This document shows, in pieces, positions 14,589 to 38,056 of a stretch of 42,417 bases of DNA; position 1 is the first letter of the stretch, and the number at the start of each line of letters is the position of its first letter. Source of the stretch: a virus; IMG/VR virus record IMGVR_UViG_3300005511_000874, positions 1 to 42,417 of that record; one strand, given 5' to 3'. The notes beneath the pieces are model-generated. The model did no database searches. It had not been told where the DNA came from and saw nothing but the letters and a program-made list of their open reading frames with translations. Both the position numbers and the translations under genes were made by a program.

Positions 14589-15211
14589 TCCCAGGACTCC
14601 ATCAGGTCCAGGCTGAAGCCGCCCTGCAGCTCGCCCGGATGCGTACCCCAGGTGGAATCTCCGCTGACTCGACGCATGAGGCAGGTCGGCCGATCCCAGA
14701 CGATGACGCTGCCCGCGGCGACGGCAACTCGCAGTACTGGTTCGAAGCTCACACTGATCCGGCCGTTCCCATCTGCAGTCGCATCCGCCTGCACATGCAG
14801 CAGCTGACGGTAGTTGGCCAGCTGGTTGACGCCGATCCAGTCGCCCTGCCTCAAGGTCCGGCCAGCCTGGTTCTCGCCCAAATCGATCGCGATCGACGCG
14901 GCCCCAGCGACGGCCGTGGCTTGTGCGACCCATGCGCCACGCGCGGTGCCTCGAGGCCGAGTTTGGATGGTGTCGTAGACCGCGAGCTGGTTGACCCGCC
15001 CACGGAGGGAATGGATCAGTGCGCGCCACGAGGCGCCCGACTCGAGCTCCGCGCGTTCATTGCCTACCAAGCTGCAGGTCCTGCGCGGCGGGCCGAATAC
15101 AGACGTCTGCACTGCCCCAGTGTTCTCGTTCGAGAAGGACAGGTCGAACGTGCGGATCCCGAAATCCTGGCGGACGATCGCCAGGTCGGACGGAATTTGG
15201 ATGATGCTCAT
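14585..15211 (-). CDS. Minor tail protein (distal-tail-like)
   Basis: A 208-aa beta-rich protein directly after the tape measure gene, beginning MSIIQIPSDLAIVRQDFG. It probably forms part of the distal tail or baseplate hub. ATG 15211 overlaps the tape measure stop (ATGA). Near its N-terminus (NTGAVQTSVFG) lies one copy (14/16) of the phage-wide 16-bp palindrome. Confidence 0.65.
   Translation of the reverse strand: MSIIQIPSDLAIVRQDFGIRTFDLSFSNENTGAVQTSVFGPPRRTCSLVGNERAELESGASWRALIHSLRGRVNQLAVYDTIQTRPRGTARGAWVAQATAVAGAASIAIDLGENQAGRTLRQGDWIGVNQLANYRQLLHVQADATADGNGRISVSFEPVLRVAVAAGSVIVWDRPTCLMRRVSGDSTWGTHPGELQGGFSLDLMESWE
15097..15112. repeat. Palindrome copy 1 (14/16)
   Basis: ATACAGACGTCTGCAC, two mismatches to GTGCAGACGTCTGCAC, near the start of the distal-tail-like gene (encodes VQTSV on the minus strand). 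Confidence 0.6.
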
Positions 15212-17394
15212 TGCGCCGGCACCACCCTGAGACGCTGCAGATACTCGAGCATCTGCTGGTTGCCTCGTGTCACCAGCGACTGCATGTCGGCCATGATGGC
15301 GCCGCGATCGGACCTGCTGTCGATCGCCACCTGCCATGTCGGCGAGACAACGACGGATTGCGAGACCTGCGCGCCCAAGGCGTCATTGGGAACGATCGAC
15401 CCGCTCACGTCCGGCGTGAAGAGCTCGGGTCCCTTCTCGCCGACGAGATAGGTGTCGCCGGAATTGACGGGCCCACCACTTGCTCGAGCACCGACGATGT
15501 TCACCAAGCCATCCAACGCAGTCATCTGCGAGGACGTGTACCCGCCACCTCCACCGGTCAATCCCAACGCGCCGCCGAAGCTGCGCAGGAGCCCACCGAA
15601 CAACCCCGAGCCCTCACCACCTTGCACCAGGTCGCCGAACATCGCGCGTGAGAGCTTCGCCGCAGCCGCTTCGGCGATCATCCGCTTGAGCAACTGACCG
15701 AAGTTGGTGCCGATCGTCTTGAAATTGCCGTCGAGCACGTTCACCAGACCCTGGCCGAGAGAGTCCTGGATGTTCGCGGCGCCGCGCTTCGCAAACTCGT
15801 CCGTGGTGTTGTTGAGGTCGGCGATACGCTTCTTCGCCTCGTCGTACTCGTCCGTGGCCTTTTGCACCGCCCTTGCGGTCGTCCCGGGCCCGAGGCGCTC
15901 GAGCTCGGCCGATATCCCGGCAAGCCGAGCCAGCTCGGCGTTGTAGGCCTCGAGGGGGGTTCGCGACGACTCGAAGACGCGTCGGGCTTCATCCTGCACC
16001 GCGAACAGGCGACGTTGCGCCTCTTCCTGGTCTTTCGTCGCCGTCTTTTGAGCCTCGGCGCGCTCCTTCAGCACGTCGATTTCCGCCGCGGTCTTCAACA
16101 TGGCCTGCTTCTGGTCTTCGGACACAAGGCCGCCGTTGGCGCGGATGCGTTGGATCTCGGCCAAGGTGACCTCGACCTGGCTGAGCTCCTTCACCTTCTC
16201 GATCTGTTTGGCGAGGCTTTCGATGTACTGCTTGGCCTTCGCTTCCTCGTCCCTTCCCTTCGAGGACTTGTCGGGCGAAGCGATGACCGGCGCCTCGGTG
16301 CGCGTGTCGGGCGATTCCGGCTTCCAGCCACGGTCTTCCTTGCGCCGCTGCGCGCTCCCCATGGGGTCAGCCTTGTCCGCGAGGCGCTTGAGCTCTTCGC
16401 TGGCCGCGTTCGCCACGCGCTGCTGCTCCTCGAGCTGGCCGCGGTAGGTGGCCATCCGTCGCTGCGCCATCTCGTTGCCCGGGTCCCGCTGCAGCGTGAG
16501 CTCGACGCCATCCATCTGCCGGCGCAGGCGGGCCATCTCGCCCATGGCTGTCTGCGCACGCTTTTGCGCATCGCCGATCTCGTCCATGCCCAGCGTGCGG
16601 GCAAAGCCGCCGCCGATCGTGACCAGAAGCGCGTTGAGCAGACTGCCCTCTTTCTTGGCTTCGAGCATCTGATTGGTGATCGACACCAGCGACTTCAAGA
16701 AGGGTCCGCCCAACGCAACCGATGCAGCCTCGCCGGAGATCCGCAGCTTCGTGAGGTTGTCGTTGAAATCGGCCGCGTCCTTCGCCAGCGAGCCGCCGTA
16801 GATGGCGCCGAGCTGCTCAGCCTCGAGGCGCAGCTTCTCGATGCCTTCGCGCCCCTGGTTGAGCAGCGGGATCATCTCCGCACCGCTCTTGCCGAATATC
16901 TCCTGTGCAAGCGCCGCCTTGAGGGTGCCGTCCTTGTAGCTGGCGAAGCGGTCGGCCAGCTCGCCGAGCACCTCCTCGCTGCTGCGCACGGTGCCGTCGG
17001 CGTTCTTGACCTCGATGCCCAAGGTCCGGAAGGTCTCGGCGGCCTGCTTGTTGCCGCCTGCGGCCTCCGCGATCTGCTTGCTGAGCCGACCGACGCCGCC
17101 AGCCAGGGCCTCGAGCGGCGTGCCGACCGATTCGCCGGCGTAGCGCAGTTCGCTGAGCTTCTCCACCGAGATGCCGGTCTTCTCCTGCAGGTCGTCCAGC
17201 TGATCGAGCATGTCGATCGACGACTTGGCGCCCAGCACCGCTACGCCCGCCGTAATCGCAGCGCCCAAGCTGACGGCGCCGGTCTTGACCCTTCCGAATC
17301 GCTCCGTCAGACCGTCCACGGACCGACTGACGGACGCGAACATCGCCTGCGTCGCGTCCTTGCCTGCAAGAATGATCTCGGCTCTCGTTGCCAC
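15208..17394 (-). CDS. H: Tail tape measure protein
   Basis: A 728-aa tape measure protein. It starts with a conserved ATRAEIILAGKDATQAMFASV segment, continues through long helical coiled-coil regions (about 40-570) and ends in a Gly-rich tail containing VGEKGPELFTPDVSG, a hallmark of this family. It sets tail length and helps DNA injection. At roughly 0.15 nm per residue, tail length would be near 110 nm, typical of a siphophage. It follows the G/GT chaperone genes directly, as in lambda. Confidence 0.93.
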   Translation of the reverse strand: MATRAEIILAGKDATQAMFASVSRSVDGLTERFGRVKTGAVSLGAAITAGVAVLGAKSSIDMLDQLDDLQEKTGISVEKLSELRYAGESVGTPLEALAGGVGRLSKQIAEAAGGNKQAAETFRTLGIEVKNADGTVRSSEEVLGELADRFASYKDGTLKAALAQEIFGKSGAEMIPLLNQGREGIEKLRLEAEQLGAIYGGSLAKDAADFNDNLTKLRISGEAASVALGGPFLKSLVSITNQMLEAKKEGSLLNALLVTIGGGFARTLGMDEIGDAQKRAQTAMGEMARLRRQMDGVELTLQRDPGNEMAQRRMATYRGQLEEQQRVANAASEELKRLADKADPMGSAQRRKEDRGWKPESPDTRTEAPVIASPDKSSKGRDEEAKAKQYIESLAKQIEKVKELSQVEVTLAEIQRIRANGGLVSEDQKQAMLKTAAEIDVLKERAEAQKTATKDQEEAQRRLFAVQDEARRVFESSRTPLEAYNAELARLAGISAELERLGPGTTARAVQKATDEYDEAKKRIADLNNTTDEFAKRGAANIQDSLGQGLVNVLDGNFKTIGTNFGQLLKRMIAEAAAAKLSRAMFGDLVQGGEGSGLFGGLLRSFGGALGLTGGGGGYTSSQMTALDGLVNIVGARASGGPVNSGDTYLVGEKGPELFTPDVSGSIVPNDALGAQVSQSVVVSPTWQVAIDSRSDRGAIMADMQSLVTRGNQQMLEYLQRLRVVPAQ

Positions 17395-17395
17395 G

Positions 17396-17743
17396 CTACT
17401 TCCTACGACGACGTGCGTTGAGCTCGCGCACCTGCTGGACTACGTTGAGCCTGCGAGACGGTGCCGGCGAGGGTGCGGAGGTCCAGGGATCGGCGGGCAT
17501 GAAGTGCTTCGCACTCCATGCTTGTCCGTCCCTGCGGGTGGTCTGCCCTTGCATCAGGGCGGCCAGCAGCTGCGCATGCCTGGCGCGGATCTGCGCCGGG
17601 TGAAGTTGCTCGCGGTCGTACAAGAGCTGCCATTCCGAGAATTCCCATCCGCTCATTCGCTCGCCCATCTCTTCCACCGAGAGGTAGCCCAGGTCCCGCG
17701 CGAGAAGAAGGGCGAAGCGGCGCGCGGGCTGGGCGATCAGTTT
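17396..17743 (-). CDS. T part of the G-T tail assembly chaperone, made by -1 frameshift
   Basis: This frame has no sensible start of its own. It is entered from gene G through the slippery site 17740-17746, adding 114 residues (LIAQPARRFALLLARDLG onward) to give a fusion of about 236 aa. The T region begins with a helix containing GYLSVEEMGERM and ends in a basic tail (RRRRK). The fusion should load the tape measure protein and recruit tail tube subunits, and is absent from the finished tail. Confidence 0.88.
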   Translation of the reverse strand, partial: KLIAQPARRFALLLARDLGYLSVEEMGERMSGWEFSEWQLLYDREQLHPAQIRARHAQLLAALMQGQTTRRDGQAWSAKHFMPADPWTSAPSPAPSRRLNVVQQVRELNARRRRK

Positions 17744-18105
17744 TTTTCGACGTCCTCGACGCGCTGGCCCGAGAGCCGCATGGCGATGTTGAAAAGCCGG
17801 AAGGCTTCGGTGCCGTTCATGCCGCCGAACTCGTCCCACTCGATCGCGGTAAGCAGAGGGTTGCCCTCGGCATCGATCACGCAGCAGTGCAACGTGCGCG
17901 GCAAGACGGCCGCGCCCGCTCGCGCGCGCGCCTCCTGCTCGGTTTCGCCATCACGCGGAACCTTGCCCTGCTCGTTGAGGTTGTCGTGGCGCAGGCGCTC
18001 GGTGAGCAGGAGGCCGCGCACGATCACGTTGCCGCCGAGGTCCTCGACGAGGACTTCCTCGCGCGGCACTTTCCGGCGCTGGATCGTTTCAGGGGTGAGC
18101 ACCAT
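17737..18105 (-). CDS. G: Tail assembly chaperone G
   Basis: A 122-aa gpG-type chaperone between the tail tube and tape measure genes, ending EDVEKN at a TGA directly after a run of seven A. Most ribosomes should stop here and a minority shift into T. It has an Ile/Val-rich N-terminal half and a WDEFGGMNGTEAFRLFN helix near 90-106. Size and position fit lambda G. Confidence 0.88.
   Translation of the reverse strand: MVLTPETIQRRKVPREEVLVEDLGGNVIVRGLLLTERLRHDNLNEQGKVPRDGETEQEARARAGAAVLPRTLHCCVIDAEGNPLLTAIEWDEFGGMNGTEAFRLFNIAMRLSGQRVEDVEKN
17740..17746 (-). promoter_or_regulatory. Programmed -1 ribosomal frameshift site
   Basis: The canonical heptamer A AAA AAC in the zero frame (codons GAA AAA AAC, then TGA) lies at the last codon of gene G. 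A -1 slip gives AAA CTG ATC and joins the T frame in register. This X XXY YYZ form matches known viral slip sites. No downstream pseudoknot was worked out. Confidence 0.88.
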
Positions 18106-18108
18106 GGA

Positions 18109-18759
18109 TCAGGCCTCGCCCGGATAGGCCTGCAGCTCGCCGCGCACATCGATGCTCACGGGCGTGGTTACGGCCGCGCCGGCGGACCCGCCTGGCGCCA
18201 GCGTCGTCGACGGCATGCCTGCGAACAGCACCGTGGCGCCATCCAGAAAGCGGAAGCGGATCGCGCGCACCTCGCGCTTGCGCGAGGCCTTCGACAACTC
18301 GATCAGGGCGGGGTCTGCCACATCCCAGAGCGAACCGAAGCCATAGGTCAGCGGACCCACGTTGCCCGGCAGGTTGTAGTCCTTGCGACGGTGGATGGTG
18401 CGCACGGCCACCTTCTCGGCCTCACCGCCGCTGGGGGTCACGTCAGTGAAGGTCTCGGCGCTGGCGCCGAAGGTGACCTCCTGCGCGCTACCCGAAACGA
18501 AAATCTCCTCGGCGTCGGTCAGATCGACGCCCTCGAGCGCGAAGTTGTCCTCGGCCGTGTTGGCGACGCGCACCACCAGCCAGTCCAACTGGCCCATGCC
18601 CTTCACGCGCAACAGCAGGATCTTGCCGTTGCCATAGCCATGGCCGGCGAGGGTCACTACGGCAGGGTTCGCTTTGCTGATGCCCGTGATGTTCTTCGGG
18701 GCAGCGAGGGTGGTCTGAACGTCAACGGCGACTTCGGACCAGATCTGTACATCGGACAT
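18109..18759 (-). CDS. V: Major tail tube protein
   Basis: A 216-aa beta-rich protein in the lambda V position, between the tail terminator and G. It contains NYNLPGN-type and GFGSLWDVADPALIELSK segments seen in siphophage tube proteins, and an N-terminal PAVVTLAGHGYGNG stretch. Hundreds of copies should polymerise on the tape measure. The gene ends 3 bp before the start of G. Confidence 0.82.
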   Translation of the reverse strand: MSDVQIWSEVAVDVQTTLAAPKNITGISKANPAVVTLAGHGYGNGKILLLRVKGMGQLDWLVVRVANTAEDNFALEGVDLTDAEEIFVSGSAQEVTFGASAETFTDVTPSGGEAEKVAVRTIHRRKDYNLPGNVGPLTYGFGSLWDVADPALIELSKASRKREVRAIRFRFLDGATVLFAGMPSTTLAPGGSAGAAVTTPVSIDVRGELQAYPGEA

Positions 18760-18771
18760 GGAATGCTCCTG

Positions 18772-19218
18772 CTAAAGGGGTTGGTCCGGCGCGCCGCGCC
18801 GGGTGAAATACTGGGTCTGCCAGGCCTGCTCGCGCGCGGCCAGCACGCGATCACCCTCCCCGCTGAAGCGGATGCGCGAGCGAGTGAGGGCAGTACGCCC
18901 GGGCTTCGGCGCCGCGAAGGTGGAAGCGCCAAGTACGCGCTCGATCTCCAGTCCGAGGGCGCGGGCCTGCGCTCCGTACCCTTCGCCGTGCGCCAGCACG
19001 GCCGTCACCAGCACCGACAGCACGCGCGTTTGCATGCCGTTGACGGTCTGCGGGTCGGATCGCTCGCCTTCCTGGTCTTCCTCGATCAAGATCGCCGGCA
19101 GATCCTCCGCTTCCAGCGGATCCACCCGGTCGAGAAACACACGCGCGCCGGCCGCCGTGCTGGCTGCGAGGAGCGCGTCGCGATAGGCCTCGAGGATCAA
19201 CTGCTGCGCGTGCACCAT
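18772..19218 (-). CDS. U: Tail terminator (U-like)
   Basis: A 148-aa protein beginning MVHAQQLILEAYRDALLAA, with an alpha/beta layout and a VLSVLVTAVLAHGEGYGAQARAL helix-strand pattern typical of gpU-type tail terminators. It sits between the head-tail joining protein and the tube. It should cap the tail tube and dock it to the head. Family assignment is by position and fold pattern. Confidence 0.75.
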   Translation of the reverse strand: MVHAQQLILEAYRDALLAASTAAGARVFLDRVDPLEAEDLPAILIEEDQEGERSDPQTVNGMQTRVLSVLVTAVLAHGEGYGAQARALGLEIERVLGASTFAAPKPGRTALTRSRIRFSGEGDRVLAAREQAWQTQYFTRRGAPDQPL

Positions 19219-19220
19219 GC

Positions 19221-19544
19221 TCAGGCCTTCCGAAGTGCGTACACGATGAATCCCGCGCCATCCGGGTCGCCGCGGCCCACGAGGAACTCTTCCGAGGCGG
19301 CCGTGACGGGATTCACCAGCACCACGGCCGTGTTCTGCCGCAGCTTCTGGGAGTCGGCCAGCGAAACCGTCAGCCGCGGCTCGATAGCCTCGGCCAGGCC
19401 GTCCAGGGCATCGACGCCCGCGGCCTCGTAGATTCCGTCGAACTCCGCCGCCACCGGCGCCGACACCACCACGCGGCGATTCGCCATGCGGCGCATCACC
19501 TTCGCGTTGAGGCGCGACTCGAGGGCGGCGAAGTTGACGGGCAC
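19221..19544 (-). CDS. Head-tail joining protein (FII-like)
   Basis: A 107-aa protein with a helical start (NFAALESRLNAKVMRRMANR) and then beta strands (RVVVSAPVAAEFDGIYEA). It fits the lambda FII class that binds the head completion protein and receives the tail. It lies between the capsid decoration gene and U, with a 2-bp gap to U. Confidence 0.7.
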   Translation of the reverse strand: MPVNFAALESRLNAKVMRRMANRRVVVSAPVAAEFDGIYEAAGVDALDGLAEAIEPRLTVSLADSQKLRQNTAVVLVNPVTAASEEFLVGRGDPDGAGFIVYALRKA

Positions 19545-19555
19545 GAGATCCCCGA

Positions 19556-19927: not shown

Positions 19928-19964
19928 GAAGGTTCCTTTCGAACGGATAGATGACGCTCGGCGA

Positions 19965-24385: not shown

Positions 24386-26568
24386 AGGCGGCTGCTCCAG
24401 TCATCGGAGGCGAAAGGATTGGGGGGAGGAACACGCGCCGGCGGACGCGGCGGGCTGCGCTCGATGGGTGGTGGCGGCCGCGGCGGTGCGGGCGCTGCAG
24501 CGCTCGGAGCCGGCGCCGGCGGCGGCACCGGCGCACTGACCGGCATCACCGGAGGCTCGAACTCTGTGGCCGGAGCGGGCCGAGGCGGCGGTGCAGACGT
24601 CTGCACGCCCTCGAGGTCATCATCCGAGAGCAGAGGTGCCTGGCGCACGCGCACCTCGGCGAGGTCCCATTGCTGCTTCTTGCGAAGGTGCAGCCGCAGC
24701 GCCCTCGAGAGCCACAGGGCATAGACCGTGCAATCGAGTGCTTCATTGCGGCGATCCGTCCTGGGCTTCCACTCCCGCCGCAACTTGTTGCGACGCCCCG
24801 GGATCTTGATCTCGCTGAGCAGCTGCCCGTAGAAGTCGTCCCGCACACCCTCATACCAGTGCATGCGCGCGGGCCCGTTGCCCTCGAGCCGCACACGCCC
24901 GGCCTGCTCCGACCAGCCCAGGATCAGATCCTTCGCCTTCGCGGTTCCGACCTGGTTGGACTTCACGCCAGCGCGAGAGGCTTTCGTCGATTTGTTGTTC
25001 GGGTCGATCGCCTTCGGCGGGGTCCAGATCTCGACGGTACCAACCGCATCGGGCGCACCCTTGACCGCATACACGGGGCGATCACGGCGATCGTGCTTGC
25101 GGACGAACTCGTAGACCGCATCTGCGGTCTGTCCGTCCGACGAGTCGATCGCCAATGCGGCGATGCCGAGGCCGGCGCCCGTCGCGTGCTTGATCTGGCG
25201 GCCCATGGTCTGCTCGAGCTCGATCCACGCACCGGCGTGGGCCACGACCGTCTTGCCGTAGAACTCGCCCCAGAAGGCAAGCCACATCTCCTCGCCGCGG
25301 CCGAACACCCAGACGGTCACGGCCAGTCGGTCGTGCTGGACGTCAACGGACATCAGAGCGACCAGGCCGCCGACCGGACAGCTCCACTCCGCGTACTGTT
25401 CGGCGCGCTCGCGCAGCGTGTCCTCTTCCGGCAGCTCGCCGCGGTACTCCCAGGTCCGGCCCAGCGTGCTGTTCCAGAACGCGATCATGTCCGTCGGATC
25501 GCCCTTGTCGAGCTCGGCTTTGGCCTCGAGGTACTTGCGAGCCAGCACCGGCACGCGCGAGCCGTCGAAGGTGCTCAGCAGCTCGTTGAGGTAGTAGCCC
25601 GGAATCGGACTATCCGCCGTCGCCGCCCATCCGCCGCCATCGCGCTCGGCGCGCCGGAGGTTCGCAATGCGCTCATCGTCGGTCCAGATCTGGCCGCAGT
25701 GCGGGCAGGCGTAGTAGGCCTGGTCAGGCAGGAACTGACCGTACACCTCGTGCACCGGCGCTTGCTTGTCCTCGGGAATGGTGACGTGCTCCCAGTCCGG
25801 CGCATGGAGCTCGCCGCACGAATGGCAGGGCACGTGGAAGTAGCGCTTGTCGGTGGTCCGCATCTCCGCTTCGACCGCGCTCGCGTCCTTGGCCGTGGGC
25901 GTGCCGCCGATCAGGATCAGGTGCCTCGGATCCGTCTTCACCCGCTCGCCGAGCAGCTTTACCGAGTTGCCCTGCCCCTTCACGTTCGCGGCGGCGTCGT
26001 CGGGCTCTTCCACGATGACCACGCGCGCGCTCGTGGACTTCACGTCGCTCGGGCTGTTCGTGCCGACCAGCTTGATCAGCCCTCCGGCGAAGCGCTTGCG
26101 CAACGCGCTGTTGCCCTGGGCCCTGCTGTTGAGGGTGATGCGACGCGCCAGGACCGGCGTGCTGCGGATCATCGGATCGAGCTTCTCGCTCGCGAAGTCC
26201 TTCGCGGCCATCGCCCGCGGAAACGCGACGACGATGACGCTCGGCCGGTGATGCACGTGATAGCCGATGACGTTGCACACGATGCCCGCGGTGTAGCCAA
26301 CCTGCGCGCTCTTCTGCACCACGAGCTTGCGCACGGCCGCGGCCGTGGCCGTCTCCGCGATCTCGCGAAGCGCCGGAGACACGCGCCAGCTGAAGCGCCC
26401 TTTGAGGGCGGATTCTTCGTTGCTGAGCACGCGGTACTTCTCGCTCCACTCCGCGCAGGTCACTGCAGGGGGAGGGTTGAGCTTCTTCCATACACGCGCA
26501 TGCGTCGCGCGCAACGCCCGACGCGCGCGCAGCACATGCGATCCGCTCGGGCCCGCCTCGTTCGTCAT
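24382..26568 (-). CDS. terL: Terminase large subunit (GpA family)
   Basis: A 728-aa packaging motor. The ATPase contains QKSAQVGYT (85-93) in the Walker A position and VVIVEEPDD (183-191) as Walker B. Two zinc-binding pairs lie between ATPase and nuclease: Cys248/251 and Cys288/291. The nuclease begins at MSVDVQHDRL (Asp409), with a second acid in LAIDSSDGQ. The last 70 or so residues are a Pro/Ala-rich tail, longer than usual, and a perfect 16-bp palindrome (24591-24606) encodes VQTSA at its first residues. The start at 26568 overlaps the small subunit (ATGA). Confidence 0.95.
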   Translation of the reverse strand: MTNEAGPSGSHVLRARRALRATHARVWKKLNPPPAVTCAEWSEKYRVLSNEESALKGRFSWRVSPALREIAETATAAAVRKLVVQKSAQVGYTAGIVCNVIGYHVHHRPSVIVVAFPRAMAAKDFASEKLDPMIRSTPVLARRITLNSRAQGNSALRKRFAGGLIKLVGTNSPSDVKSTSARVVIVEEPDDAAANVKGQGNSVKLLGERVKTDPRHLILIGGTPTAKDASAVEAEMRTTDKRYFHVPCHSCGELHAPDWEHVTIPEDKQAPVHEVYGQFLPDQAYYACPHCGQIWTDDERIANLRRAERDGGGWAATADSPIPGYYLNELLSTFDGSRVPVLARKYLEAKAELDKGDPTDMIAFWNSTLGRTWEYRGELPEEDTLRERAEQYAEWSCPVGGLVALMSVDVQHDRLAVTVWVFGRGEEMWLAFWGEFYGKTVVAHAGAWIELEQTMGRQIKHATGAGLGIAALAIDSSDGQTADAVYEFVRKHDRRDRPVYAVKGAPDAVGTVEIWTPPKAIDPNNKSTKASRAGVKSNQVGTAKAKDLILGWSEQAGRVRLEGNGPARMHWYEGVRDDFYGQLLSEIKIPGRRNKLRREWKPRTDRRNEALDCTVYALWLSRALRLHLRKKQQWDLAEVRVRQAPLLSDDDLEGVQTSAPPPRPAPATEFEPPVMPVSAPVPPPAPAPSAAAPAPPRPPPPIERSPPRPPARVPPPNPFASDDWSSRL
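24591..24606. repeat. Palindrome copy 2 (16/16)
   Basis: GTGCAGACGTCTGCAC, a perfect 16-bp palindrome at the junction between the TerL nuclease domain and its Pro-rich tail (encodes VQTSA). Confidence 0.85.
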
Positions 26569-27991: not shown

Positions 27992-28293
27992 GGGACACGC
28001 TCCTGTGCAGGCGTCTGCACGGCCGGCGGCTCGGCGATGAAGGCCGCGAAGGCGACGCCGTTGACGACGGCGTATTGCTGCCATTGGTCGACCGGCGAGG
28101 CCGGCGGGAAGGGCGTGCCCAGGACATGCCCGCCCTCGAGGGCATAGAAGCGGCCCGGCTCGCCCGCGAGCGCGCGCCGCAGGCAGTCGTCGACGTGGGC
28201 CTTTCCCATGTCGAGGCGCTTGCGCTCGATCCATGCCGCCGTCATCGGCATCGCGGTGCGCATATCGGACGGCTTGGGTGCTGGCTGGCTCAT
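27985..28293 (-). CDS. Unknown conserved-looking phage protein
   Basis: A 102-aa protein starting MSQPAPKPSDMRTAMP, with a mixed middle (GRFYALEGGHVLGTPF) and a Pro-rich end. A 15/16 copy of the phage palindrome encodes its VQTPA near the C-terminus. It is translated just before the 265-aa gene. The first gene after the TGGACGG-rich region. No family recognised. Confidence 0.6.
   Translation of the reverse strand: MSQPAPKPSDMRTAMPMTAAWIERKRLDMGKAHVDDCLRRALAGEPGRFYALEGGHVLGTPFPPASPVDQWQQYAVVNGVAFAAFIAEPPAVQTPAQERVPC
28005..28020. repeat. Palindrome copy 3 (15/16)
   Basis: GTGCAGGCGTCTGCAC, one mismatch, near the 3' end of the 102-aa gene (encodes VQTPA). Confidence 0.75.
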
Positions 28294-28656
28294 GGTGCTG
28301 ACCTCCGAAAGTGAAGGGGATGGACGGGGGGCGGACGGCGCAAACCCGCGTGGCTGCTAGATCCGTCCATCTGTCCAACCTGTCCAAGGTGTGTGAGTGA
28401 GCTGCGCCCCCGCGTGCGCGCGCAGACACGCGCCCGCCTGTCTGCGCGCCTGCACACATGAGCGAGGGATGGCCCCGAGGGGTGGACGGGTGGACGGATC
28501 GGGATTTTTTCAATCGCGACAACGGCTTGCGCCGTCCACCCTCCCATGGACGAAGGGCGGACGAGGCTGGACGGCGGAGGCGTCAGGACCGGGCACGCAG
28601 ACGCATGCACGGGGCGAGACCTACCGCGAGGCATCCAGCCAGGCGCGCGCGGGTGA
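28294..28656. repeat. Non-coding region with many TGGACGG motifs; candidate origin
   Basis: A 363-bp stretch without a convincing gene, between the primase-helicase stop and the next leftward gene. TGGACGG or its complement CCGTCCA occurs at about 28321, 28363, 28483, 28492, 28532 and 28568, with shorter GGAC/GTCC variants near 28332, 28372, 28382, 28547 and 28558. The middle holds GC-rich alternating CG/CA sequence and a short T-run (28505-28510). Iteron-like repeats next to a VapE-type primase suggest an origin; a terminase-binding role is an alternative. Confidence 0.5.
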
Positions 28657-31056
28657 TCAGAACGGAAGGTCATCGCCCTCCTCTCGAAACTCATCGGCCG
28701 GCGGCGTCGACGCTGCGCCGGGCTGCGCTGGCAGGTCCGGCTTCGCGCGACGCCAGCCACGCAGGCGACGACCCGTGGTCGGGCGCTCTCGGACGAAGCC
28801 GAGCAGCTTCATGCAGTTGGACACGCGCGTGTCCATCTGGCCGTTACCGTCGATGCGGTCGGCCTTGATCAGCAGCGCCTTTTCGTAGAGCTCGTTGGTC
28901 GTGAAGAAGTCGCGCTCGACCCGAGGCACCTCGGTCGCGTTCGGCCGATGCGGGTCGTTGACGTAGGCGCTGAGCATGTCCTCCCACGGATCCGAGCGCT
29001 TGAATGGCTCCTGCTCGGGGAACACCAGCGTGCGCTCCTCCTCACGCGTCGGCCAATACTGCTCGCCGAGCTGGACCCGATGCAGTGCCTCCGCGAGCAG
29101 TTGCAGGCGGGCTGCCTTGAGGACATCGACGTTGACGGCCTTCACCTCGAGCGGCCAGAAGCGGCGATCGCCCGTGGCGTCCTTCAGGAAGGTGTCGGCG
29201 TTGGTCGTCCCGACGTTCACCGAATGCCGCGGCGCCTTGACCATCTGCGAACCGTAGGGAGGCCGGTACCAGTCCTCCTGGGCCGAGAGGTACTGTTTGA
29301 TGAGCGTGGTCTCGGATTTGTTGAGCGACTCGAGCTCGGCCGACTCAACGATCCAGGCGAGCTGCATCGCCATCTGCGAGTCCTTGTCGCCCACCCTGAT
29401 CGCGTTGTCGGTGAAGTACGGGAACGACAGGGCGCGGAAGGCCGTCGACTTGTTCAGGCCCTGCTCGCCCTTGATGATGAGCATGTAGTCGAACTTGCAG
29501 CCCGGATCGGTCGCTCGTTTGACCAGGCCCATCATGAAGCACCGCGCGATCAGCCGAACGTAGGGCCGATCCTGGACCTCGAAGACGTCGGTCAGCCAGT
29601 GGTCTATGCGGTGGGTTCCATCCCACTTTTCTGCCTTGATCCAGTCGATGATCGGGTTGTAGCGGTTCAGGCGCGCGGTCATCAGCACGCCATCGCGCAA
29701 GGTGCCCTTGCCCTTGATCCCGAGGCCGTAGACCTGCAGCAGGTACTCGCCGAGCATGAGGTCGTCTTCCTCATCCCAATCGCCAGCTGGACGGCCCCAT
29801 GGCGCGTGTGGCCCGCGCTCGAGCAGCAGCGAGAAGTCGTTGCGACGCACCAAGCCCTTGAGCCTTGGGTCATCGCGCATGGCGTAGAACACGTTCTCGC
29901 GGCAGTCCTCTGGCTTGCCTCGACGTCCCTTCACGAGGGCGTCAGCCACCCGGTCGAATGCCTCCTCATCGTCGCCCTCGGGCGGCACATCCGCCGGCGG
30001 TCCGCCGCCGCGCCCTCCACCCTCGCCGCCCCCAGCGGGAGCCGGCGTCGCGCGAATTTTTTCGCGCGGCTTGCTGACTGCCACGCCGACCAGCGGCGCG
30101 AGCCAATGGAGGGCATCTGCGGGCTTCTGCGCGGGCAGCCACTCGAGGACCAGGTCCAGCGGCGTGCGAGAGCCGCCCTTCGGGTCCCCCATGTCCGCCA
30201 CGCCGAAGTCGCAGATCCCCAAGGGATCGATCGACAGATCCTCCTGCAGATCGCGGCCCAGGGCCTGCGAGGTGACTCGGTAGCCAGCGCCCCGGGGAAT
30301 CTCGCGGCCGCCAAAGAGCGCGGGCACCCACGCGGCGAAGTTGGCCATCGCGGCGTCGTTGACCCTGCGGAAATCGTTGGTGCCGCCGTCCTCGTGCTGC
30401 GCTGGCGTGGCAGCGGGTGCGGGCGCGACCTTGGGCGCCGGCCGCTTCGCTTCCTTGGCCGCGGCCTTGGCATCGTCGATCGTTCGGTGCAGACGTCTGA
30501 GCGCGACATCGCTGATCGGGTTCACCTCGGCCGGCGTGTTCGGGAATCGGTTTCCAGTGACGGTGAAGTACTGGCTGCCGGCGAAGACCTCGACGCCGAT
30601 GTCATTGCTTTTGTTCGTCGACGTCTCACCACGCACGATACTGTGCACGCCCTTGCCGCTGGGCGAGATCTCGGTGAAGCTGTCGCACGCCGCGACGATG
30701 TTCTTGCAGCGGTCCGACCACTGCCCATCCGCCTCGAGCTGCCCGTCCAGGTCGATGCCGATCAGCCCGTCGCCTGGCAGGAAGGCGAACCCGACCCCGT
30801 GCCAGCCAGCACCAGGACGCTCGAAGGCCCTGCGCGCCACATCGAGCGTCGCCAGCCGCTGCCGGTCTCGGTCGTTGCCCTGCCCGCCCGTACGCCTGCC
30901 GCCGGCGACGTAGTAAGGGACCTTGTTCGGCTTGGTATCGGTCTCTCTCTTGAACTCGAATTTCCAGAGGACCCAATGCTGCAGGGTCGCCAGGGAGGCG
31001 GGTATGCCTTCCCACACCGGCGGGATGATCGGTGGCAGCTGTCGCGCGTCGGACAT
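28657..31056 (-). CDS. VapE-type primase-helicase
   Basis: A 799-aa replication protein. The N-terminal part looks like a primase-polymerase: GLIGIDLDG (Asp102, Asp104), SPSGKGVHSI (131-140) and GVEVFAGSQYFTVTGNR. A Gly/Ala-rich linker (about 330-365) precedes a superfamily-3-like helicase of the VapE/DUF5906 class, with Walker A GEQGLNKS (530-537), Walker B AWIVESAELE (567-576) and the conserved TTNADTFLKDATGDRRFWP. It should open and prime the phage origin. Downstream (leftward) lies the TGGACGG-rich region. It encodes one copy (14/16) of the phage palindrome in a third codon phase. Confidence 0.9.
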   Translation of the reverse strand: MSDARQLPPIIPPVWEGIPASLATLQHWVLWKFEFKRETDTKPNKVPYYVAGGRRTGGQGNDRDRQRLATLDVARRAFERPGAGWHGVGFAFLPGDGLIGIDLDGQLEADGQWSDRCKNIVAACDSFTEISPSGKGVHSIVRGETSTNKSNDIGVEVFAGSQYFTVTGNRFPNTPAEVNPISDVALRRLHRTIDDAKAAAKEAKRPAPKVAPAPAATPAQHEDGGTNDFRRVNDAAMANFAAWVPALFGGREIPRGAGYRVTSQALGRDLQEDLSIDPLGICDFGVADMGDPKGGSRTPLDLVLEWLPAQKPADALHWLAPLVGVAVSKPREKIRATPAPAGGGEGGGRGGGPPADVPPEGDDEEAFDRVADALVKGRRGKPEDCRENVFYAMRDDPRLKGLVRRNDFSLLLERGPHAPWGRPAGDWDEEDDLMLGEYLLQVYGLGIKGKGTLRDGVLMTARLNRYNPIIDWIKAEKWDGTHRIDHWLTDVFEVQDRPYVRLIARCFMMGLVKRATDPGCKFDYMLIIKGEQGLNKSTAFRALSFPYFTDNAIRVGDKDSQMAMQLAWIVESAELESLNKSETTLIKQYLSAQEDWYRPPYGSQMVKAPRHSVNVGTTNADTFLKDATGDRRFWPLEVKAVNVDVLKAARLQLLAEALHRVQLGEQYWPTREEERTLVFPEQEPFKRSDPWEDMLSAYVNDPHRPNATEVPRVERDFFTTNELYEKALLIKADRIDGNGQMDTRVSNCMKLLGFVRERPTTGRRLRGWRRAKPDLPAQPGAASTPPADEFREEGDDLPF
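30487..30502. repeat. Palindrome copy 4 (14/16)
   Basis: GTGCAGACGTCTGAGC, in the primase-helicase gene, read there as LRRLH in a different codon phase from the VQTSA copies. Confidence 0.6.
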
Positions 31057-31059: not shown

Positions 31060-31536
31060 CTATGCCGCCGGCTTGCCCGCACGGTTGAGCTCGGCCAGCG
31101 TCGCCAACAATTGCTGGACGCTTGCGACAACCTCAGCGCCTTCGGCCTGAGCTTGCCGCAACTCGTTGTCGTTCACGTCCCCATCGGCCAAGGTGTCGCA
31201 CACGCTGGCGAGCAATTCCGCCGACTGACGGGAATGCTCCGCCAGTGCACGCACGGCCTCCTTGCCGCTGCCCATCGCGCCTCGTGGAATCGGGACGAGC
31301 AAGCATCCCATTCGGGCCGCGAAGGCGGTCGCGAACTCGAGTGCCTCCGGAGTACCCAGCTCGTAGCAGATCTCTGCAATGTCAGCAGCGTCATCGACGC
31401 CCAGCTTGAATCCTGGAGCACCACGGAGCTCTTTGTCGAGCGTGCTCGCGGTCTTGCTCGGCAGCCGCGGCGCCAACGACTCGACTCCGCCCGGGTAACG
31501 CCGCGCCATCGCGCGGACGGCATCACGAATGTTCAT
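31060..31536 (-). CDS. CII/CP76-type phage regulatory protein
   Basis: A 158-aa protein resembling Phage_CP76 (CII) regulators: MNIRDAVRAMARRYPGG, APRLPSKTASTLDKELRG and DAADIAEICYELG in the first 75 residues form the DNA-binding part, with a helical C-terminus. I chose the ATG at 31536. It lies between the Cro-like gene and the primase-helicase, the position of lambda cII, and may control lysogeny or replication genes. Confidence 0.78.
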   Translation of the reverse strand: MNIRDAVRAMARRYPGGVESLAPRLPSKTASTLDKELRGAPGFKLGVDDAADIAEICYELGTPEALEFATAFAARMGCLLVPIPRGAMGSGKEAVRALAEHSRQSAELLASVCDTLADGDVNDNELRQAQAEGAEVVASVQQLLATLAELNRAGKPAA

Positions 31537-31723
31537 ATCCGCCGAAATGAAAAAGGGAGATGGCGTGACACCCCGGAGCCGGGAAGACTCCGCGCATGAC
31601 AACAACACAAAGACCCCGCCGCCTCAGCGCGCCAAAGGATGTGCACCTGCCCGCGCACAGCCCGAGGAGGAGGACGCCAGAAATAGCGAGCGCGCCTGTG
31701 GTGATGGCGGCGGGGGAAAACAT
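31523..31723 (-). CDS. Possible 66-aa membrane peptide
   Basis: A short frame beginning MFSPAAITTGALAISGVLLLGLCAG, a plausible signal or membrane helix, overlapping the start of the CII-like gene by 14 bp. No Shine-Dalgarno is visible and the C-terminal half is Cys/His-rich without a pattern. It would fill the gap between the Cro-like and CII-like genes, but evidence is thin. Confidence 0.28.
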   Translation of the reverse strand: MFSPAAITTGALAISGVLLLGLCAGRCTSFGALRRRGLCVVVMRGVFPAPGCHAISLFHFGGYEHS

Positions 31724-32986: not shown

Positions 32987-33014
32987 CGACCCCGTCACAA
33001 CGACGGAGGTCGAC

Positions 33015-33413: not shown

Positions 33414-33616
33414 ACCGGCCGCAGCTCACGCCGCCTCGCGCCGATGGCCATAGCTACCTCTGGGGGCAGATCTTCTTCACTGAGCCGATCGGCCAGTGGA
33501 TCTGCGTGGCCGGGCACTCGTGCCGTTGGTCGATCGCACGCTCGGATGCCGGGGTGATGGGCCGTGTCCAGCGCCGTCGCGCCAGTCCTCAATCGCTCGC
33601 TCAGAGGTCCGCATGA
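33410..33616 (+). CDS. Unknown small early protein
   Basis: A 68-aa protein with an aromatic centre (SYLWGQIFFTEPIGQWICVAG). The start overlaps the preceding stop (ATGA) and its own stop overlaps the next start. The C-terminal third is basic and low in complexity. No family recognised; reality rests on the unbroken overlap chain. Confidence 0.5.
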   Translation: MNRPQLTPPRADGHSYLWGQIFFTEPIGQWICVAGHSCRWSIARSDAGVMGRVQRRRASPQSLAQRSA

Positions 33617-33756
33617 GCTGGCTAGAAGGCATTCTCGTCGCCGGCGCCATCCTCCTGCTGTACGGCGTCGCGAACGTGTTCGACGTGGCCGACAAGGTCA
33701 CCCACGGCACCGCGAGCGAGATGCTCTACACGGCCTGCAGGAGCGTGAAGCCATGA
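33613..33756 (+). CDS. Single-pass membrane peptide
   Basis: A 47-aa protein beginning MSWLEGILVAGAILLLYGVA, one membrane helix and then a short polar tail. Both ends overlap neighbouring genes by ATGA. Function unknown. Confidence 0.5.
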   Translation: MSWLEGILVAGAILLLYGVANVFDVADKVTHGTASEMLYTACRSVKP

Positions 33757-33935
33757 GGCGACACCTCGACCCGCTGCAGCTCGAGCAGCTGCGCGACGCG
33801 CGCAGTCCGGACCGCCCGCTCATCGAGCGTATCTCGGGCGTCGCCGTCAGCATCTGCCTGGCGCTGTTCATCGCGGCGGTTTGCATCGGCTATATCGCCT
33901 ATGCGCTCGGCCAGCTGCCAGGGCCCACGCCATGA
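33753..33935 (+). CDS. Single-pass membrane peptide
   Basis: A 60-aa protein with a polar N-terminal half (MRRHLDPLQLEQLRDARS) and one strong membrane helix (VAVSICLALFIAAVCIGYIAY, about 31-51). Translationally linked to both neighbours. Function unknown; exclusion or lysis-control roles are guesses. Confidence 0.52.
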   Translation: MRRHLDPLQLEQLRDARSPDRPLIERISGVAVSICLALFIAAVCIGYIAYALGQLPGPTP

Positions 33936-34297
33936 CCGCGGCGGATGTGCAGACGTCTGCACCGAGCGCCGCATTCGACCTGTTCGACACGGAAGGCGAG
34001 CCGCTCTACTTGGACCTCGTCGGCGTCCTGCTGCAGGACGCTCAGGTGCGCACGGCGCTCGTGGGCGAAGACCGGCACCCGGTGCCGGTGCTCTGGCTAG
34101 AGATCCGCCCCGTCCACGCGCTGGTCGGCAACGGCCGAACCATCCACGTCGAGCAGATCTACAGCGAGGCCAGTCGCAAACAGGCCGAGCGAAAAGCCGC
34201 ATCCCTCAAACGCGGCGCACGCGTCCGCATCACCACCTCCTTCCATGGCATGCGGACGATCCTCCCGGACGTCCAGGCCGTGGCCCTCATCGCTTAA
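33932..34297 (+). CDS. Unknown early protein, possibly OB-fold-like
   Basis: A 121-aa protein with alternating strands (YLDLVGVLLQ, PVPVLWLEIRPV, TIHVEQIY, ARVRITTSFHGM, AVALIA) around one helix (SEASRKQAERKAAS), a pattern that would suit an OB fold and so perhaps nucleic-acid binding; this is inference only. Codons 6-10 (VQTSA) are a perfect copy of the 16-bp palindrome (33947-33962). The start overlaps the preceding stop (ATGA). Confidence 0.6.
   Translation: MTAADVQTSAPSAAFDLFDTEGEPLYLDLVGVLLQDAQVRTALVGEDRHPVPVLWLEIRPVHALVGNGRTIHVEQIYSEASRKQAERKAASLKRGARVRITTSFHGMRTILPDVQAVALIA
33947..33962. repeat. Palindrome copy 5 (16/16)
   Basis: GTGCAGACGTCTGCAC, perfect, at codons 6-10 of the 121-aa early gene (encodes VQTSA). 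Confidence 0.85.
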
Positions 34298-34310
34298 TCG
34301 GAGCGCCAGC

Positions 34311-34655
34311 TTGACATCCGTCACCATCACATTCATCGACCTGGGCGACGACCAGGTCAGCGTCCGCACGGACGCGGTCCCTCCCGCGGTTGGCCGTCGC
34401 CTCACGCGCGCCGAAGCACTGGCCATGGAGTTCCTCGGGACCTCGTTCCGCCGTGGCGCTGAGGTGATCTACGACCGCCGCCAGATCCCCGCGATCTCCC
34501 TCGCGCTAGAGCTCAACGATCCCGAAGGTCTCGGACACGCCGCAACGCCGTGCATTCGCGCTCGCGCGCGCGACGTGGTGTCCAGCATCAGCACGCACGC
34601 GCCCGTCGCCGGTGTGGACATCGATCAGTTCCACCAGACGAGGCGGGCAACGTGA
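34311..34655 (+). CDS. Unknown early protein with TTG start
   Basis: A 114-aa protein (MTSVTITFIDLGDDQVSVRTD). The best start is TTG at 34311, seven bases after GGAG; the frame is open upstream but without a ribosome site. A strand-rich first third and a C-terminal segment like DVVSSISTHAPVAGVDIDQF. It ends in GTGA overlap with the next gene. No family recognised. Confidence 0.6.
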   Translation: MTSVTITFIDLGDDQVSVRTDAVPPAVGRRLTRAEALAMEFLGTSFRRGAEVIYDRRQIPAISLALELNDPEGLGHAATPCIRARARDVVSSISTHAPVAGVDIDQFHQTRRAT

Positions 34656-34957
34656 GCGCGGTCTACCTGCTTGCCAGCACCTTCGGCCTCGTGTTCGCCC
34701 TGAGCCTGCAGAGCAAACTGGTCAACAACGGCCATTACGTTGCAGCCTTCCTCAACAGCGCCGCCATCGGCGCCTGCAACCTGGTGCTTTTCAGGCTCGC
34801 CCCGGACGCCACCGGCCTCGAAATCGTCGGCTACCTAGCCGGCGGTCCCTTCGGGGTCATCGCGAGCATGTGGGTGTACCGCCGCATGCGGGCCGGCTCG
34901 ATGCTGCTGCACGACTTTCCGCTGATCGGTCGCATCTTCTCGGAGCGCCGGCTATGA
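34652..34957 (+). CDS. Multi-pass membrane protein
   Basis: A 101-aa protein with three hydrophobic segments (VYLLASTFGLVFALSL, AAFLNSAAIGACNLVLFRL and EIVGYLAGGPFGVIASMWVY) and a conserved-looking YLAGGPFG turn. It starts at GTG 34652, overlapping the previous stop. It looks like a family found in early regions of other phages, but I cannot name it. Confidence 0.65.
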   Translation: MSAVYLLASTFGLVFALSLQSKLVNNGHYVAAFLNSAAIGACNLVLFRLAPDATGLEIVGYLAGGPFGVIASMWVYRRMRAGSMLLHDFPLIGRIFSERRL

Positions 34958-35751
34958 GCGGCGGCATTGCCACACCCCGGAACATCGTGTCCCGCGGGAT
35001 CTACACCGGCGAGGATCTGCGGCGATCGTCGCCGCGACAGGGCGCCTACGACGCGTATGCGATCCCCAGTTTGATCGGCGGTCGACTGGTGACCCGCGAG
35101 CAGCAGCGCGAGGAGCTGCTCGCGCCACTCCCGCCGGCGCCGCCCATGCCTGCAGCCCGCGGCGCCTCACGCGTTGCCGAACCCGAGCCGGCACCGCTCG
35201 GCGAGCCGCCGGCGTCCCCTCCTCCGGCGCCCGAGCCTCTCCAGCCGCCGCCCGTGGTGACGTACGTCAATCGCGTGGCTGAGCGCACTGTTGCTCCTGC
35301 GGCCAAGCCCTACAGCGCCCGCGGAGGCAGCTTCCCGGATCTTGTGCTGACGCACCTTCGAGAGTACGGCGGGCATCTCTTTTTCAGCGAGGTCACGACG
35401 CGCTACGGCGTCCAGCCAACGTCCATCACCAGCATCTTCAAACCCGCCGTCTCACGGGGCGCGCTGATCCGCGTGCGAATCGGCAAGCGGATGGCGTTCG
35501 CGCTACCCGGCTACATCCCGCCCAGCCCGACCGATGGACGAAAAATTGTTATCGGCCCCGTCGACCGCGCGCTAACGGGCACCTCGCTCGACGCGCTCGC
35601 CGCCGAACTGCCCGTCGCATCCATGGCCCAGCTCAAGCGCGTGCTCGAAAGCACCGCACGCTTGCTGCTGCAAGCCGCCGAACTGATCCAGCTCGGCCGC
35701 CCCACCGACCTTCCCACCAATCTCGCCGGAGAAAAACATGCCCATGACTGA
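34954..35751 (+). CDS. DNA-binding-like protein with winged-helix region
   Basis: A 265-aa protein. The N-terminal part ends in a Pro/Ala-rich linker (about 50-90). Residues about 120-180 (FPDLVLTHLREYGGHLFFSEVTTRYG, then SITSIFKPAVSRGALIRVR) look like a winged helix-turn-helix. A helical C-terminus with leucine repeats (LAAELPVASMAQLKRVLESTARLLLQAAELIQLG split over two helices) may dimerise. It is just upstream of the ParB-like gene, overlapping it by 14 bp, and may work with it. Function is inferred. Confidence 0.62.
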   Translation: MSGGIATPRNIVSRGIYTGEDLRRSSPRQGAYDAYAIPSLIGGRLVTREQQREELLAPLPPAPPMPAARGASRVAEPEPAPLGEPPASPPPAPEPLQPPPVVTYVNRVAERTVAPAAKPYSARGGSFPDLVLTHLREYGGHLFFSEVTTRYGVQPTSITSIFKPAVSRGALIRVRIGKRMAFALPGYIPPSPTDGRKIVIGPVDRALTGTSLDALAAELPVASMAQLKRVLESTARLLLQAAELIQLGRPTDLPTNLAGEKHAHD

Positions 35752-38056
35752 ATTCGCTGCGGCGGATGGCGCAGCCATTGCCGACCCCACTGAAATGCAA
35801 GCGCTGCCGCTCGACACGCGCAGCTTCGCAGATCTGGATCTCGAGCTGATCGTGGAGCGCCGCTACCAGCCTCGCACGATCTTCGACGAGGGCGCGCTGC
35901 AGGAACTCGCGGACGACATCGCGCGGCGCGGCCTGCTGCAGCCGATCCTGGTGCGGCCGCTGCCGCCCAATCGCCTGCAGGACACATTCGAGAGCCGCCC
36001 AGCCGGCCAGCGGCTGCCCGAATTCGAGATCGTGGCAGGCGCTCGCCGCTTCCGAGCCAGTCGCCTCGCGGGAATGAAGTCGATTCCTGCGCTGATTCGG
36101 GCGTTGGATGACGTCCAGGCCGCCGAGGCCTGCCTCGTAGAGAACCTGCGGCGCGAAGACCTGACCGAGCTCGAGGAGGCCGAAGGCTACGCCGAACTGG
36201 TGGAAACCACCGGCGTGGCGAAAGAGGACATCGGCGCCCGAATCAACAAGAGCCGCAGCTACGTCTATGGGCGCATGAAGCTGCTGGACCTCACTGCGAC
36301 ACCACGCGAGGCCCTGCGCAAGGGCGAGATCGATGCGAGCCGCGCACTGCTGATCGCGCGCATTCCCAGCGAGAAGCTCCAGCTCGAAGCGTTGGAAGAG
36401 GCCACCGCCAAGGACCATCAGGGCTCGCCGCGGCTCAGCTATCGCGCCTTCCAGACATGGGTGCAGCAGAACGTCATGCTCAAGCTGGCCACGGCGATCT
36501 TTCCGATCGACGACGCCACCCTGGTCTCTCCAGCTGGCCCCTGCACCACGTGCATGAAGCGCACCGGCGCCGCGCCGGACGTTTTCACCGACGTTGACGG
36601 TCCAGACGTCTGCACGGATCCAACGTGCTTCCACGAGAAGGTATTCGCGCACACTGACCGAATCGCTGACGCAGCACGGGCTCGCGGCGTGGAGGTGATC
36701 GAGGGCAAAGAGGCGCTCGAGCTGAAGCCTCACCAGTACGCGAGCTGGCTCAGGGGCTACAACGACCTCACCAGTGAACTGCGGGCCGAACTGTCCACGC
36801 GCGATCTGGGCATGGTCAAGCTGTTCATCGACCCTCACACGCACGAGCCGCGCGAGATCATCCCCGCAGATCTGGCACAGAAGGCGAGGCACAAGGCAAG
36901 CGTCAAGGAACTCAAGAGGGATCCCGAGCTCGCCAAGAAGCACGCTCAGCAGCAGGCGAAGGATGAGGAGCGCGAGGCGAAGGAGGTCAAGCGCCAGTTG
37001 ACGCGCGACTACCAAGCCCGATGGCGCGAGGCCGCGGCAGACCAGCTCAAAGCGGGCATCCTCGCGGGGAACATTCAAGCGTTGAGTGCAAACCTGCTGC
37101 GGCAGGTCCTCATCGAGATGGCTTTCGGAAGCGGGCGATGCGAGCGCAGCGTCAGCAATGTGCTCGAGGTCGACCAGTACGACGAGGAGCTGCTGGCCTC
37201 GACCATCCGCTCACTCGATGACACGCAAGTGGGCTACACGCTACTGCTCGTTCTGCTCGACGGCGATCGGTCTCCCGTGTGGGACTACGTGGACGGTGAC
37301 CACGTCTTCAGCGACGCTGCACCATCGATCGAGGAGCTCGCACGCCTTCTGTCGTTCGACGTTCAGGCGGTGAAAGAGGACGTGCAGCAGCAGATCCGTG
37401 CCGAGCGCGCGGAAGTCGAGGCCTCCGGCGCGGAACTGGCTGCGCAGCCGGAGGGAAGTGCGAAGGGCAAAAAATCGAAGGCGCGGCCTGCGGCGCCCGC
37501 GAAGAAGCCGTCGAAGGAAGAGGTTCAAGCGAGCATCGCTACCGCGCTGCAGGAGCTCGATGCTGGGCCAGCCGGAGAGCCCGCCGACGAAGCTGGCGAC
37601 GCTGTCGATTCCCCAGCCGCCGACGCTGCGGCAGAGTCCCCTGCGGAGATCGGAATTTCCGACAGCGTCGAAGTCAACGACACGAAATACTCGCAGCACG
37701 GCAAGCGAGGCACCGTGACCAGGCTCGAGAGCAAGAACAAGGTGCGAGTCGCCTTCGATGACGAAGGCACTGTCGTCGTCTTGCCGGTGAGCGCCTTGAC
37801 GCTCGTTTCCAAAGCGCTCTGGCCGTGGCCCGGATCGGACGCGACACCCACGCCGGCGAGGCCCGAACTATCCGCTGGCCAGCGAGTGAAGGTCCGCGGG
37901 TCTCTCAGCGGGCATAACGCCGAGTACCACGGCAAGGAAGGGACCCTCAAGCGCCAGGTCGACGGCACCACGAAGTGGGTGGTGAACCTGGCCAAGCCGA
38001 AGAAGGCGCCCAAGCTGGTCGAGCTCGAGGCCGACGCGCTGGAGGTGCTGGCATGA
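35738..38056 (+). CDS. ParB-like DNA-binding protein
   Basis: A 772-aa ParB/RepB/Spo0J-family protein, far larger than chromosomal ParB. It has an N-terminal ParB domain with GARRFRA (101-107, the GERR-type nucleotide box) and ENLRREDL (135-142), a helix-turn-helix (TGVAKEDIGARINKSRSYV, 158-176), a zinc cluster (Cys269, Cys272, Cys292, Cys297), a coiled Lys/Glu segment (about 390-430), an Ala-rich linker, and two C-terminal KOW-like beta modules (about 645-690 and 705-770). No ParA partner is nearby. GGAG lies six bases before ATG 35738. It carries a 15/16 palindrome copy inside the cysteine cluster. It could bind phage DNA for segregation, replication or transcription. Confidence 0.85.
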   Translation: MPMTEFAAADGAAIADPTEMQALPLDTRSFADLDLELIVERRYQPRTIFDEGALQELADDIARRGLLQPILVRPLPPNRLQDTFESRPAGQRLPEFEIVAGARRFRASRLAGMKSIPALIRALDDVQAAEACLVENLRREDLTELEEAEGYAELVETTGVAKEDIGARINKSRSYVYGRMKLLDLTATPREALRKGEIDASRALLIARIPSEKLQLEALEEATAKDHQGSPRLSYRAFQTWVQQNVMLKLATAIFPIDDATLVSPAGPCTTCMKRTGAAPDVFTDVDGPDVCTDPTCFHEKVFAHTDRIADAARARGVEVIEGKEALELKPHQYASWLRGYNDLTSELRAELSTRDLGMVKLFIDPHTHEPREIIPADLAQKARHKASVKELKRDPELAKKHAQQQAKDEEREAKEVKRQLTRDYQARWREAAADQLKAGILAGNIQALSANLLRQVLIEMAFGSGRCERSVSNVLEVDQYDEELLASTIRSLDDTQVGYTLLLVLLDGDRSPVWDYVDGDHVFSDAAPSIEELARLLSFDVQAVKEDVQQQIRAERAEVEASGAELAAQPEGSAKGKKSKARPAAPAKKPSKEEVQASIATALQELDAGPAGEPADEAGDAVDSPAADAAAESPAEIGISDSVEVNDTKYSQHGKRGTVTRLESKNKVRVAFDDEGTVVVLPVSALTLVSKALWPWPGSDATPTPARPELSAGQRVKVRGSLSGHNAEYHGKEGTLKRQVDGTTKWVVNLAKPKKAPKLVELEADALEVLA
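36600..36615. repeat. Palindrome copy 6 (15/16)
   Basis: GTCCAGACGTCTGCAC, one mismatch, inside the ParB-like gene, encoding PDVCT of the zinc cluster in a third codon phase. Confidence 0.75.

Follow-up and report, generated by a model that had tools for sequence, protein, structure and literature searches.

Why should the DNA of a phage repeat one 16-bp palindrome six times in genes that are otherwise unrelated, and which protein, if any, would read it there? The window analysed here, meaning the whole stretch of 42,417 bases, is a complete IMG/VR record, and judging by the large serine recombinase at its left end (the probable integrase) it would come from an integrating temperate phage. 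Its minus strand carries a lambda-like head and tail block, and a megablast of window bases 20001-42417 against INPHARED gave no match. The initial annotation had located the six copies and their mismatches correctly: none at 24591 and 33947, one at 28005 and 36600, and two at 15097 and 30487. These copies, and the genes to which the argument refers, are as follows.

1..1608, plus strand: large serine recombinase, probable integrase, at the left end of the window
15097..15112, no strand: parS-like site, ATACAGACGTCTGCAC, two mismatches, a weaker copy; in a gene of the minor tail region read on the minus strand, in a stretch unaligned with the relative G001
24591..24606, no strand: parS-like site, perfect palindrome; in the minus-strand gene for the terminase large subunit, close to its 3′ end, exact in the relative at 24974
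28005..28020, no strand: parS-like site, GTGCAGGCGTCTGCAC, one mismatch; directly upstream of a ribosome-binding-like AGGAG and a start codon on the minus strand, identical in the relative at 28388
28657..31056, minus strand: VapE-type primase/helicase, neighbouring replication gene
30487..30502, no strand: possible weak site, GTGCAGACGTCTGAGC, two mismatches; in the VapE-type primase/helicase gene, not kept in the relative
31060..31608, minus strand: CII-like regulator (Phage_CP76)
33947..33962, no strand: parS-like site, perfect palindrome; 5′ end of a small plus-strand gene (MTAADVQTSAPS...), one mismatch in the relative at 35857
35738..38056, plus strand: orphan ParB P0001, 772 amino acids, with ParB_N (31-137), HTH_ParB (140-226), a four-cysteine module and a long C-terminal region
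36600..36615, no strand: parS-like site, GTCCAGACGTCTGCAC, one mismatch; inside parB, in the codons for ...GPDVCTD..., identical in the relative at 38489

Two other parts of the window deserve a remark of their own. An AT-rich island (2625-4896, about 48-52% GC compared to 65%) adjoins the recombinase and encodes two proteins, one with a PIN_8 domain and one of the DUF6236 family, which may form a cargo or defence pair, and the right end (40619-42417) holds two minus-strand genes, one for an MtlR-like protein of 211 amino acids and one for a protein of 342 amino acids without Pfam match.

The palindrome in the window and in a relative

The control was the same 16 letters reversed, likewise a palindrome and of identical composition, and at up to two mismatches the window has none of it, as opposed to six copies of the palindrome itself. 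When three mismatches are allowed the palindrome has seven matches, where 0.42 are expected and the largest of 100 shuffles reaches three; the seventh match (position 809, three mismatches) is at chance level. At the shorter scale of 10 bp, no palindrome in the window is as frequent as CAGACGTCTG, which has five exact copies, the runner-up having three.

A relative, IMGVR 3300039303_000018, whose parB is 71% identical to that of the window, holds four of the six sites within at most one change (24591, 28005, 33947 and 36600), so that a related phage does keep most of the motif at matching places, its lack there being one of the outcomes that would have spoken against a signal. The copy at 15097 falls where this relative does not align, and at 30487 the relative has GTGCAACCGCCTGAGC between flanks that are about 90% identical; for these reasons both copies are less certain sites. 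Since the difference at 30487 consists of substitutions and leaves no gap, a short mobile insertion was rejected as the origin of the copies. The same observation disagrees with the earlier idea that several copies sit in protein ends or linkers tolerant of extra sequence, as does the presence of one copy in a conserved cysteine motif of ParB.

Association of the palindrome with a phage ParB

Across IMG/VR the exact palindrome occurs in at least 118 stretches, as opposed to three for the reversed palindrome (complete scan); an arbitrary 15-mer, both strands counted, gave 59. The neighbouring bases of 120 flank-distinct exact sites are unrelated, and the motif is therefore not one homologous segment. 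All 23 whole records checked carry between two and eight sites at up to two mismatches, with a reversed-control total of one. Several exact sites occupy the same codons in a gene that reads ...(S/G)ADVCTDP.CF..K..., and the copy at 36600 has the corresponding place in the window's own parB (GPDVCTDPTCF).

When searched with a profile built from 17 phage ParB proteins, 43 of 50 motif-bearing records have a phage ParB, compared to one of 27 control records (Fisher P 4e-13). The CII-like family PF06892 is present in 30 and VapE (PF05272) in 25 of the same 50 records, and as correlates of the motif both were set aside as weaker than ParB. The reverse test leads to the same association: out of 80 viral loci picked solely for encoding a ParB relative (about 10-20 kb each, 1.25 Mb in total), 69 hold at least one site at up to two mismatches, amounting to 152 sites against none for the reversed control. 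The other 11 have no site within their stretch of about 10-20 kb, and a search for an alternative repeated palindrome in a subset of them found none that was convincing. Among 80 bacterial-genome loci with ParB relatives, mostly chromosomal ParBs, sites are seen only in the two phage-like ones (L295 and L296). Even a count of perfect 16-bp palindromes in 83 ParB loci, made without the motif, puts GTGCAGACGTCTGCAC first (22 copies in 17 loci) and GTGCACACGTGTGCAC second (12 in nine), the next reaching six. The sites conform to GTGCA[G/C]ACGT[C/G]TGCAC.

Some records with the motif lack a detected ParB. One is G004, a record of 31 kb, perhaps a fragment, with four sites, and another is G007, where two sites are exact and a third has one mismatch. 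Near the right end of G007 (L396, which is G007:C1:26000-36056, and L397) a 1011-aa ORF, in which hydrophobic segments and an apparent P-loop are seen, adjoins an integrase-like ORF; our guess is that it might be a cargo gene that replaced parB.

The same association is found in bacterial genomes, where a motif equally common across the host would have argued against a phage signal. In the 5.7-Mb genome of Variovorax ginsengisoli all four copies are on one contig, and it is this contig that carries a phage ParB. In 151 genomes of the family of this species, 18 have the motif (at most one mismatch), 16 have a phage ParB and 12 have both; that is, the motif is present in 12 of the 16 genomes with a phage ParB and in six of the 135 without (P 1.5e-10), which ties it to the prophage and not to the chromosome. 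The two often share a contig, as in G125:C179 (six sites), G117:C26 and G166:C99. All six sites of G125:C179 are the asymmetric variant GTGCAGGCGTCTGCAC and lie beside a diverged ParB, and this variant is possibly a clade-specific site. Genome G216 has eight copies (at most one mismatch) on five contigs, perhaps because it holds several ParB-type prophages.

The copy inside parB allows DNA and protein conservation to be told apart. In 55 parB genes with the residue pattern, from loci that were not chosen by the motif, the alanine of the embedded site is encoded by GCA in 47 of 53 cases (89%, compared to 14.8% gene-wide), the preceding serine by AGT in 26 of 28 (93% compared to 7.6%) and the preceding glycine by GGT in 19 of 21 (compared to 10.5%). 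These favoured codons are the rare ones that the palindrome requires. The effect is very large, with binomial P from 4e-17 to 9e-33, values which overstate independence because the parB genes share ancestry. Synonymous codon choice thus rejects protein conservation as the sole cause of the parB copy, in agreement with the initial annotation, which had argued from other grounds that such conservation could not account for all copies and that the repeats were a signal in the DNA, to which a protein of the phage or of the host might bind. This suggestion gains support here, and the likely protein is the phage's own ParB. What emerges is a palindrome of parS type, 16 bp long, tracking a ParB and selected at the DNA level.

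As to the protein, P0001 scores above the curated cut-offs of PF02195 (84.3 bits, cut-off 26.3), PF17762 (54.5, cut-off 22.6) and TIGR00180 (126.4, cut-off 58.45), and by this domain test belongs to the ParB/RepB/Spo0J family. The ParB fold and CTP-site-like motifs, G[AE]RRFRA and ENL[RQ]RED, are predicted in the P0001 family from sequence and model, and the PDB proteins to which P0001 is related, in sequence as well as in predicted fold, are ParB, Spo0J, Noc and KorB. Residues 1-27 have low confidence in the structure model. Directly after the HTH come four nearly invariant cysteines (C269, C272, C292 and C297); the stretch that they span, residues 269-297, is outside the Pfam matches, and its sequence would suggest a metal-binding module.

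P0001 was also considered as a Noc or a PRTRC ParB and was ruled out as either by the family cut-offs, with 141 bits for TIGR04285 (cut-off 315) and 124.8 bits for TIGR03734 (cut-off 278.6). Positions 173, 179, 184 and 201 (Caulobacter ParB numbering) set the specificity of ParB and Noc (PMC7383237). In the alignment P0001 has R, R, D and S there, which differs from the Noc specificity residues Q173, K179, K184 and R201. Among the phage proteins, whether the site is of the C or the G type correlates with ParB residues 182, 184 and 200; however, columns outside the HTH correlate as strongly, and this correlation is therefore confounded by phylogeny.

Proposed loading of the phage genome and competing roles

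Taken together, we estimate at about 0.87 the probability that the palindrome is parS-like, a site at which the phage's own ParB binds and is loaded. That ParB is its reader is, from the sequence associations, very likely, and loading as a CTP clamp is probable by analogy with the family. According to PMC12704722 and PMC7383237, ParB-family dimers recognise 16-bp palindromes with the HTH and close upon CTP, before they slide and are recycled. By this analogy, a dimer of the phage ParB would read the 16-bp palindrome through its HTH domain, bind CTP and close round the DNA as a clamp, which would then slide off and free the site for the next dimer.

What such clamps would do is a matter of conjecture. 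To the likeliest role, the loading of clamps along the whole phage genome of about 40 kb, we give by itself somewhat less than even odds; the clamps could organise, compact or shield this genome, and could act in early infection, on an episomal form or in the prophage. The presence of three to eight sites spread over a genome of about 40 kb, with no ParA detected, makes whole-genome loading likelier than ParA-driven partition from one centromere. The spacing of sites is on average slightly more even than random, at modest significance (pooled P 0.007, 13 genomes), although the window itself is not even, and dispersed, slightly even sites lying mostly within genes would favour whole-genome loading over one centromere or one promoter. 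An early or lysogenic role is plausible from the place of parB in VarioGold, where it follows the CI repressor gene on the same strand and has SSB and nucleotide-kinase genes nearby. A wider reading is tentative and rather doubtful, namely that a widespread group of integrating temperate phages has a ParA-independent ParB clamp which, from several dispersed 16-bp sites, coats the whole viral genome. The purpose of such a coat (compaction, shielding from host nucleases, silencing or self-recognition) is just as speculative. If true, whole-genome coating would add a further, separate function of ParB to those of partition, nucleoid occlusion and local repression.

The strongest rival, which we consider unlikely, keeps the same reader and the same sites and makes gene regulation the output: in the style of KorB of RK2 or of VirB, ParB would load, slide and repress or de-silence distant phage promoters. 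KorB, a relative of P0001 by sequence and fold, does use a 16-bp operator (PMC11790492), with 12 binding sites on RK2 according to a reference cited there. The position of the annotated parB of VarioGold, on the strand of the CI repressor gene and downstream of it, would agree with regulation. Some sites are intergenic, three of 11 in two annotated phages compared to about 6% of positions, an enrichment that is suggestive only; an ORF-length criterion is blurred by the spurious ORFs that cover this GC-rich DNA. Against regulation, the sites of annotated phages are mostly within genes, including terminase, primase and parB, and have no common position relative to promoters.

Less probable still is a role in partitioning or maintaining the phage as an extrachromosomal element, with a ParA of the host or by riding on the nucleoid. 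The so-called plasmid unnamed2 of Comamonas odontotermitis (L377, NZ_CP083453.1) is a complete circular phage genome of this type, 36.9 kb long, with an integrase, an orphan ParB and six sites at up to two mismatches, and is therefore an episomal prophage or induced phage DNA. Moreover, the plasmid prophage N15 is partitioned by means of centromere sites that are dispersed (PMC3235114, PMC7205306). However, a ParA-type ATPase, sought by a single family model (AAA_31, PF13614), was found in none of 44 records whilst all 14 control genomes match, and none of 125 ParBs has the canonical ParA-binding motif [LFI]G[KR]G[LFI] near its N-terminus, the only occurrence being at residue 477 of one protein. 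The window and the annotated examples, in addition, have integrases.

That another DNA-binding protein reads the site (a CI/Cro repressor, an integrase, a host nucleoid factor or a methylase) and that ParB merely shares its module is improbable. Phage repressors, too, use palindromes of such size, and CII and VapE genes are common in the records that carry the motif. Yet of the three correlates tested ParB is the strongest, synonymous codons keep a site inside parB itself, and the HTH family of ParB is known to read 16-bp palindromes (PMC7383237). Chance, a codon-usage artefact or protein conservation can be practically dismissed, for even though one copy is in a conserved protein motif of ParB (ADVCTD), the scarcity of the reversed control in IMG/VR, the unrelated flanks and the rare codons of the parB site all speak against them.

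Known ParB systems and the phage sites

With the palindrome as the likely loading site of the phage ParB, a large group of orphan prophage ParBs gains a likely DNA site, natural variants of which track variants of the protein, and binding, CTP gating and function thereby become directly testable in inducible laboratory phages, such as VarioGold. The two also form a candidate parS-ParB pair of new specificity for DNA labelling, and dispersed ParB sites add to the organisation of phage genomes a layer that still calls for explanation. Among the papers searched, none contains the 16-mer, and the VarioGold paper mentions the ParB domain and not the sites.

Orphan ParB-like proteins of prophages have been surveyed in PMC12704722 (PNAS 2025); as a group they are recognised, with DNA targets and roles that are for the most part uncharacterised. 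Like the phage ParBs of this work, they have a ParB-CTPase fold, are encoded by prophages outside parAB operons and are without the ParA-binding motif. The passages of the survey that were consulted report no cognate DNA sites, whereas a likely site is given here for one large group.

The resemblance to the chromosomal and plasmid ParB-parS systems (Spo0J, Caulobacter ParB) is found in the ParB_N and HTH_ParB domains, in the CTP-site-like motifs and in a site inside parB. Like parS, the phage site is a 16-bp palindrome with an ACGT centre, and GTGCACACGTGTGCAC even has the CACGTG centre of the consensus parS, TGTTTCACGTGAAACA; the outer half-site, however, is GTGCA in the phages and TGTTT in parS. 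Further differences from ParABS are the lack of a detected ParA, the extra four-cysteine module and long C-terminus of the phage ParB, and the dispersal of sites over the phage genome, whereas those of ParABS cluster near the origin. Since neither a ParA partner nor the ParA-binding motif near the N-terminus was found in the tests made, the phage system falls outside ParABS.

Noc and its NBS sites come close in another way, Noc being a ParB paralogue without ParA, with scattered sites and high sequence similarity (TIGR04285, 141 bits); but P0001 stays below the 315-bit cut-off and has R at 173, where Noc has Q. KorB and OB of RK2 likewise combine a ParB-family clamp with several 16-bp operators that are dispersed over a mobile element, although KorB has a different operator, has IncC (ParA) and KorA as partners and acts as a repressor, a role that for the phage ParB would be conjecture. 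SopB of N15, with its sites IR1-IR4, is also a ParB-type protein, encoded by a temperate phage whose genome has centromere-like sites at several positions, and the IR sites also begin with GTGC and end with GCAC while differing in the inner part; yet the prophage of N15 is a linear plasmid and has SopA (ParA), whereas these phages carry integrases and no detected ParA. Dispersed centromere-like sites being known from N15 and RK2, dispersal alone is not new; what appears to be new is the sequence of the site and its association with many ParBs that form a large ParA-less group in integrating phages.
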